Program-made: the position numbers and the translations under genes
Assembly: GCA_040757115.1 (NCBI GenBank)
Contig: JBFLYA010000199.1
Location: 1 to 6,831 of the forward strand
Direction of reading: 5' to 3'
Length of the DNA stretch: 6,831 bases
Source: a bacterium
GTDB taxonomy: Bacteria; UBA9089; CG2-30-40-21; SBAY01
Part shown: one piece after another, positions 5,302 through 6,822 of the stretch
How the letters are laid out: the number at the start of each line of letters is the position of its first letter
How positions within the stretch are numbered: position 1 is the first letter of the stretch
Notes under the pieces: model-generated
Told to the model about the DNA's origin: nothing
Database searches by the model: none
The model's input: the letters and a program-made list of their open reading frames with translations, nothing else

Positions 5302-6363
5302 ATGGAAATAACCTATTCTCCATTCTCTCACGGTGGAAATATCTATAGATTTGGGAAAGATGTAATTGACTTTAGTGCTAATATCAATCCTTGTGGATTC
5401 TCATCTCAAGTAAAAAAGACGATTTATAAGAATCTGGATAAAATCATTCACTATCCTGATACAGAGGCAAAGATTACCACCCAAAAGATTGCCAGATTCT
5501 GGCAGATAAAGGAAGATAATATCCTTGTGGGAAATGGCTCAGTTGAACTTATTTATCTTATTGCCTTAACCTATAAACCAAAAACCGCTATTATCCCTCA
5601 ACCCACTTTTTGTGAGTATGAACGAGCATTAAAAACGGTCAATTCTAATATTAGATTTGACCAACTTCAAGAAAAAGAAGGATTTAGGCTGAATTTATCC
5701 TCTCTGTCTGAGGCAGAGATTCTTTTTGTTTGCAATCCGAATAACCCAACCGGGAATCTTGTTCTAAAAAACCGCCAGCAAATTGAGAAACTGACGATTA
5801 ACAAATTAGTTGTTGTGGACGAATCCTTTATGGATTTTTTAGCCGATGAAAAAAAACACACCTTAATCTACGAGGCAGTAAAATCCAGGCAAATTATTGT
5901 CCTGCGGACTTTTACCAAATTTTTTGGAATACCAGGCTTGAGAATTGGGTATTTAGTGGCTCACCCAGAAACAGTTTCTACCTTAAAAGAATATCAGATG
6001 CCCTGGAATACTAACTTGCTGGCTCAATTAGCCACTGAGGTAATATTGGATGACTCTGCATTTATAAAAAAGACATACCAACTCATAGAGAAAGAAAGGG
6101 AGTTTCTGTTTAATGAACTGACCAAAATTAAAGGTTTGTTCCCTTATCCTTCAGTTACCAACTTTCTGTTGATTAGAATAGAAAAGGATAGTGTTACTTC
6201 TTCAAATTTAGTCAATGACCTGATAAAAAAAGGGATTTTGGTAAGAGATTGTAGTAATTTCAGGTATTTAGACAATAAATATATTCGTTGTGCCATCCGC
6301 GAGCATAAAGATAATATTAAACTTATTGAGGCATTAAAGGAAATTTTTCCCAATGAAGTATAA
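5302..6363 (+). CDS. cobD: Threonine-phosphate decarboxylase, CobD type (PLP)
   Basis: The 353-aa product is a class I/II-fold PLP enzyme. The CobD features are HGGNIYRFG (10-18), DFSANINPCG (23-32), HYPD (50-53), GNGSVELIYLIA (77-88), CNPNNPTG (144-151), VVDESFMDF (171-179, Asp173 pairing with the PLP ring), TFTKFFGIPGLRIGY (203-217, with Lys206 as the Schiff-base lysine), and GILVRDCSNF (311-320). The last block together with the HGG start separates it from the related HisC. CobD decarboxylates L-threonine phosphate to (R)-1-amino-2-propanol phosphate for the cobalamin nucleotide loop. The ATG is 2 nt after the preceding TAA with no clear ribosome-binding site, so translational coupling is likely. 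No other cobalamin gene is visible. The TAA stop (6361-6363) touches the direct repeat of the downstream element. HisC or another aminotransferase is the alternative, less likely. Confidence 0.87.
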   Translation: MEITYSPFSHGGNIYRFGKDVIDFSANINPCGFSSQVKKTIYKNLDKIIHYPDTEAKITTQKIARFWQIKEDNILVGNGSVELIYLIALTYKPKTAIIPQPTFCEYERALKTVNSNIRFDQLQEKEGFRLNLSSLSEAEILFVCNPNNPTGNLVLKNRQQIEKLTINKLVVVDESFMDFLADEKKHTLIYEAVKSRQIIVLRTFTKFFGIPGLRIGYLVAHPETVSTLKEYQMPWNTNLLAQLATEVILDDSAFIKKTYQLIEKEREFLFNELTKIKGLFPYPSVTNFLLIRIEKDSVTSSNLVNDLIKKGILVRDCSNFRYLDNKYIRCAIREHKDNIKLIEALKEIFPNEV

Positions 6364-6369
6364 AAGTAG
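6362..6369 (+). repeat. Left target-site duplication of the outer element
   Basis: AAAAGTAG occurs here and again at 6815-6822, directly outside the two terminal inverted repeats. The match is exactly 8 bp and breaks on both sides. It overlaps the last two bases of the cobD stop codon, so insertion took place at the very end of that gene without altering the protein. Confidence 0.75.
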
Positions 6370-6471
6370 GTAAGCGTTCAGGTGGTGTAACAAAAGGAGA
6401 TGTGGAGATTAAGGAGATAGGGAGATATTATTAAAAAAATTGAAATTAATAGAAACTAATAGAAATTTATG

Positions 6472-6479
6472 GAAATTTG
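6472..6479 (+). repeat. Left target-site duplication of the inner element
   Basis: GAAATTTG here and at 6680-6687 bracket the inner element exactly, and the identity stops at 8 bp on both sides. The motif is AT-rich, so chance is somewhat more likely than for the outer duplication. Confidence 0.65.
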
Positions 6480-6679
6480 GGTGGTGTCTGAAAATAACGC
6501 TAATAGTGAAATCTATGCAGATTTGGTGTAAAAAAGGGGATAAGGAGATAAAGGGAGATATGGAGATTATTCATTGTAATTTGCAAAATTTTAGAATGAA
6601 TTTATCTCCTAATCTCCATAATCCCCATATCTCCTTTTCTTACACTATTTCAACCTTTATGCTAGATTAAGACACCACC
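6480..6679. mobile_element. Inner 200-bp non-autonomous element
   Basis: The ends GGTGGTGTCT (6480-6489) and AGACACCACC (6670-6679) are perfect 10-bp inverted repeats, flanked by the 8-bp repeat GAAATTTG. A second inverted pair inside, GTGTAA (6526-6531) with TTACAC (6640-6645), continues through GGAGAT-rich tracts (6537-6568 with about 6603-6635) to ATTCATT/AATGAAT (6569-6575/6595-6601) around the centre. The right end recurs at 255-293, which independently confirms the boundary at 6679. There is no coding capacity. An 8-bp duplication fits several IS families (for example IS256 or ISL3), and I cannot choose between them. Confidence 0.7.
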
Positions 6680-6687
6680 GAAATTTG
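6680..6687 (+). repeat. Right target-site duplication of the inner element
   Basis: Second copy of GAAATTTG, directly after the inner element's CACCACC end. Joining 6479 to 6688 restores an apex loop in which TGGAAA (6470-6475) faces TTTCCA (6692-6697), as expected if the inner element entered a pre-existing palindrome. Confidence 0.65.
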
Positions 6688-6814
6688 TTGTTTTCCACAA
6701 TCAGTTTCTACCTATTTCTATAAATTTCAATCTATTTCTATTATCTTATCTCCATATCGCCCTTATCTCCTTATCCCCTTTCTTACACTTTTGATATATA
6801 GCCTGAACGGTTAC

Positions 6815-6822
6815 AAAAGTAG
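6815..6822 (+). repeat. Right target-site duplication of the outer element
   Basis: Second copy of AAAAGTAG. The original locus would have read from the cobD stop codon through one AAAAGTAG directly into ACACCTCTG (6823-6831), where the window ends. Confidence 0.75.

Follow-up and report, generated by a model that had tools for sequence, protein, structure and literature searches.

The DNA behind an aminotransferase gene at the end of a bacterial contig raises the question of whether it carries a single long repeat or two mobile elements, one inserted into the other. The window, i.e., the whole stretch of DNA that was analysed (6,831 bp), is one entire contig (C199) of a 4.3-Mb genome assembled in 462 contigs. 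The gene codes for a class I/II aminotransferase (positions 5302-6363, on the forward strand, as are the parts of the elements given in this paragraph; open reading frame with PF00155, E = 9.7e-42), and its TAA stop codon contains the first two bases of the 8-bp sequence AAAAGTAG (6362-6369), which recurs exactly at 6815-6822, 9 bp before the end of the contig. These two copies enclose an outer element (6370-6814), of which the IS66-type left end GTAAGCGTTCAGG (6370-6382) and the right end CCTGAACGGTTAC (6802-6814) are identical at 12 of 13 positions (GTAAGCGTTCAGG versus GTAACCGTTCAGG). Its left half (6370-6479) and right half (6688-6814), both recognised by their match to solo copies elsewhere in the genome, are separated by an inner element of 200 bp (6480-6679). 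The IS1-type left end of the latter (6480-6489) and its right end AGACACCACC (6670-6679) both correspond to GGTGGTGTCT, with 10 of 10 positions identical, and the element is flanked by exact 8-bp copies of GAAATTTG (6472-6479 and 6680-6687), the left one lying, according to sequence and fold, within the apex of the outer element.

Removal of the inner element together with one copy of GAAATTTG restores an outer element of 237 bp that folds into a single long hairpin (z = -9.7 versus shuffled sequences). The apex of this hairpin reads TGGAAA-TTTGTTGT-TTTCCA, and it is in its 8-nt loop that the inner element sits; the whole composite folds with z = -13.2. No transposase open reading frame occurred within either element in the list of open reading frames of the window, and an Rfam search gave no match. 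The sequence-only reading had proposed these boundaries, which proved exact base for base, together with the terminal repeats of 13 and 10 bp, both 8-bp duplications, the restored palindrome with its TGGAAA/TTTCCA apex, and the lack of a transposase in both parts, all of which were confirmed. Very probably, one non-autonomous transposon is nested in another here, namely an IS1-type MITE inside an IS66-type MITE.

This explanation is carried by the solo copies of both parts. By itself, the 237-bp outer element was found at least 40 times at full length in this genome, and most of these copies are 99% identical to the joined sequence of the window. This count was obtained by scoring 40 of 418 first-look candidates, so that the true number may be higher. 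The restored outer element of the window matched these copies over the full length with three substitutions. Twelve of 14 sampled copies were mutually identical, indicating that the burst of the outer element was recent, and solo outer elements were shared at 100% identity with the sister species G001. Of the solo inner element of 200 bp, about 25 copies were present that are complete or almost so, at 93-100% identity over most of its length. Copies of each part alone, which had been suggested as a check, thus occur many times, and they stop at the bases proposed as boundaries, so that neither of the two outcomes named beforehand as fatal to the nested reading was observed. Because the solo outer elements run uninterrupted through the insertion point at GAAATTTG, the outer element existed first and the inner element entered it, in agreement with the order of insertion that had been read from the window.

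The target duplications were assessed across the genome. An exact 8-bp duplication was found at 15 of the 39 distinct full-length outer elements with both flanks available, as well as at many solo inner elements. When all paired ends in the fetched loci were considered, exact duplications flanked 34 of 134 IS66-type and 13 of 21 IS1-type pairs (counts that include a few loci twice), versus 0.4% and 4%, respectively, upon random pairing of the same flanks. Furthermore, the end motif GTAASCGTTCAGG occurred 509 times in the 4.3-Mb genome versus once for its reversed control. The earlier claim that two such duplications at independently defined boundaries are hard to ascribe to chance is borne out by these figures. 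A matching duplication was absent from 23 of the 39 distinct full-length outer elements, which could be due to recombination between copies or to misassembly at identical 237-bp repeats. A search for swapped duplications among these elements yielded two partner pairs only, not clearly above chance. Unequal flanking 8-mers were seen, among others, at loci L002-L005, L011, L014, L018, L041, L111, L112, and L116.

Full-length elements with the ends of both MITEs, as had also been suggested for a search, were retrieved from the same genome. Contig C277 contains an IS66-family element of 1,563 bp, with a transposase frame between GTAACCGTTCAGG and CCTGAACGGTTAC, the latter identical to the right end of the outer element; this frame matches the IS66 models PF03050 (Pfam) and NF033517 (NCBIfam), between ends identical to those of the outer element. 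The IS66 family generates 8-bp direct repeats (PMC3281130, PMC10017437). The C277 element has two in-frame stops and is the sole full-length IS66 element with these ends that was found in the genome; none was found in G001, both assemblies being fragmented at repeats. A current transposase source for the outer element may thus be missing. Other families of the phylum contain IS66 relatives with related ends, such as GTAACCGTTCACA or GTAACTATTCAGC, and one such relative possesses an intact frame of 476 codons. Similarly, contig C232 contains an IS1-family element of 1,270 bp that has GGTGGTGTCTGAAA as its end on either side, is flanked by the exact 8-bp duplication CAATATTT, and comprises two overlapping, insA/insB-like frames; the left 17 bases of the inner element equal the end of this IS1 element. 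Its domain scores are weak, with the DDE domain just at the curated cut-off for PF03400 (E = 4.7e-5) and the remainder below it (NF033558, E = 1.8e-4), and no relevant match emerged when the IS1-type ORF A was compared with solved structures. An IS1595 transposase was considered as parent of the inner element too, and none was present in the genome. The ends in common with the C277 and C232 elements identify the outer element as an IS66-type MITE and the inner element as an IS1-type MITE, so that the two belong to different transposase families, a point added to the sequence-only reading. Each MITE would owe its mobility to a transposase acting in trans, that of the full-length relative with which it shares the ends only, and these particular IS66 and IS1 transposases are the presumed movers.

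The proposed course of events starts with the outer element, a 237-bp hairpin MITE with IS66-family ends, which would have landed at the stop codon of the aminotransferase gene and duplicated AAAAGTAG. The inner element, a 200-bp MITE with IS1-family ends, would then have entered the 8-nt hairpin loop and duplicated GAAATTTG. In the entire outer element, no other site matches the IS1-type target preference as well; GAAATTTG ranked first among the 230 8-mers of the outer element on an IS1-type target matrix that was built without GAAATTTG itself.

If the parts always travelled together as one composite repeat, the boundary of the inner element would be a mere internal repeat, and a GGAGAT-rich hairpin segment common to both parts does create internal repeats. 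The solo-copy searches refute this, as the parts are nested at only two places in the genome, namely in the window and on contig C103, while the other copies found are solo; hence, a single repeat is extremely improbable. The joining of two repeats by the assembler would be conceivable in a genome of 462 contigs, with the contig end close after the element and with about half of the outer copies lacking duplications. A random join is, however, not expected to yield the exact 8-bp duplications that occur at both levels in both composites, nor would it account for the exact empty site of the C103 composite in G001, making an assembly artefact very unlikely. In the C103 composite, the inner element occupies the same base in the same orientation as in the window, and the outer duplications are AGAAATTT. 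At the corresponding place, G001 has a contiguous empty site with a single AGAAATTT, in DNA that is about 96-97% identical. The search for empty sites was thus successful for this sister composite only, and its absence from G001 indicates that the C103 composite is probably recent. Downstream of the aminotransferase gene, G001 differs from the window in carrying a more diverged outer element in opposite orientation and without inner element (G001 contig C21, L079 from 2623 onward). A third composite, suggested by a length of 437 bp on contig C17 of G001, was rejected, as the outer element there holds a different element.

A nested pair at the same base in two places may also reflect a composite that was formed once and then moved as a 445-bp unit by the ends of the outer element, in which case the window copy arrived nested. 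The identical base and orientation of both inner elements, combined with different outer duplications (AAAAGTAG and AGAAATTT), speak for such a single origin, as does the probably recent appearance of the C103 composite. It is opposed by the inner element of the window, which differs at one position from the solo inner element L019 and at five from the C103 inner element, and by the two outer elements, which are of different haplotypes and differ in a deletion as well as at several haplotype positions. Moreover, the top rank of GAAATTTG as a target makes independent hits on one base plausible. A single origin has somewhat less than an even chance. Recurrent insertion at GAAATTTG and movement of the whole composite may each account for the two composites; at the window locus, we infer that the inner element came after the outer one rather than the composite arriving whole.

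Nesting is not confined to this pair. A 242-bp IS66-type MITE with a CACAGAG core lies inside an inner-type element at L039 (451-899), with the duplication AGGGAGAG, and a second IS66-type MITE with this core lies inside an inner-type element at L104 (167-614). In addition, a 284-bp IS66-type MITE with a CACCGCAGAG core is inserted in a relative of the outer element (L060, 5359-5889; duplication TAACTTTC), and an unrelated, CTAG-flanked element is located inside a solo outer element of G001 (L092, 1964-2400). These further cases in the genome and in G001 indicate that nesting occurs commonly, which is to be expected where the intergenic space is filled by such elements.

Other elements of this kind were seen in the window itself. 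Positions 1-290 represent the right part of a longer IS1-type MITE, with the end AGACACCACC at position 290, and match a family of 343-503 bp that is whole in L049, L053, L054, and L059, three of these four with exact 8-bp duplications. Positions 301-356 form a near-perfect palindrome of 56 bp with IS66-type ends (GTAACTGTTCACCGCAGAG...CTCTGCGGTGAACGGTTAC) and without duplication, and represent the CACCGCAGAG MITE in minimal form. Elsewhere, in different surroundings, the duplication AAAAGTAG also flanks an IS66-type MITE that is unrelated and has a different core (L057, 1411-1568).

In other genomes, a first version of the end pattern gave no match among the named genomes, and a pattern scan of viral contigs retrieved none. 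The end pattern of the outer element was found among the named genomes in JASEHO (MAG contigs of bacterium isolate Yes70-25) as well as in one contig filed under Gammaproteobacteria. In the latter, Modern_marine.mb.36, the right-end sequence of the outer element is located at the contig edge (L088, 5068-5099), which reflects either a binning error or transfer. The only named relatives with this end sequence are unclassified or doubtfully filed MAGs.

Both elements are short, dispersed in multiple copies, and devoid of a transposase gene, and they have terminal inverted repeats, target duplications, and the ends of full-length IS elements of the same genome, as is typical of MITEs. The pair differs from a composite transposon in that there is no flanking pair of IS elements, one element being located inside the other. 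Type I MITEs that share their ends with a resident IS element have been described, such as RUP with IS630-Spn1 (PMC2229807) and Chunjie (PMC10969869), and a MITE of ISHwa6 in H. walsbyi measures 165 bp and has 8-bp repeats (PMC3852290). The elements of the window resemble type I MITEs in their size of 100-400 bp, the lack of a transposase, the ends of a full-length IS element, the target duplications, the high copy number, the mostly intergenic location, and the hairpin. They differ in having ends of the IS66 and IS1 types; in the MITE literature compared, an incomplete survey, neither IS66 nor IS1 was named as parent of a described MITE. The ends of the outer element start with GTAA, a feature shared with the C277 element and the IS66 family, and, again as in that family, there are 8-bp duplications; unlike in that family, only the ends are retained, without tnp genes. 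The inner element shares GGTGGTG ends and an 8-bp duplication with the IS1 family, as on the C232 element, but retains the ends only, and its C232 parent, at 1,270 bp, is long and, by HMM score, a distant member of that family.

Insertion of the BOX, RUP, and SPRITE repeats of Streptococcus pneumoniae into one another has been reported (PMC3049150). In contrast to these pneumococcal repeats, exact 8-bp duplications are kept at both levels in the window and both parent IS types have been identified. The pair also resembles TIME and TIME-COMP mosaics, in which non-autonomous elements build larger mobile mosaics (PMC4133298), although these mosaics are of the Tn3 type, with two copies that flank a core, whereas here one element is nested in the other. 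Nested MITEs are thus already known from bacteria, and the window pair is an unusually clean further case, with two selfish elements that depend on different enzymes, as their ends suggest, stacked at one bacterial site. Solo copies, parents, and, in the case of C103, the empty site are all available. Furthermore, the presence of hundreds of such ends in the genome helps to explain why its assembly is broken at repeats.

More unusual than nesting is the sharing of modules by MITEs with unrelated ends, and the occurrence of hybrids with mixed ends. An internal hairpin module, GTGTAA-AAAAGGAGAT...GGAGATA, lies directly inside the ends of both IS66-type and IS1-type MITEs, and the GGAGAT module recurs in a third type of element, which has TTCGACCTGTG ends. 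IS66-type ends, in turn, enclose several unrelated cores, among which GGAGAT, CACCGCAGAG, and CACAGAG. One hybrid has IS1 ends on the core of the outer element (L040, 501-776). An IS66 end and an IS1 end are joined within the GGAGAT module in three others (L103, 472-642; L105, 469-724; and L106, 291-579), and probably likewise in L108 (1-192). None of these five hybrids has a clear duplication. They could have arisen by recombination through the shared module or by nesting followed by deletion, or they may be assembly errors. It is tentatively suggested, with rather more doubt than confidence, that MITEs of different transposases trade ends and cores via the shared hairpin module, for which nested insertions like that of the window could provide the raw material. 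The present elements offer material for asking whether such an exchange takes place between MITEs of unrelated transposases. As to the third element type with the GGAGAT module, copies with TTCGACCTGTGAAATAGG ends were seen at L109 (1-360), L036 (460-640), and L105 (120-330); it carries an apparent gene fragment that may be of the GxxExxY type.
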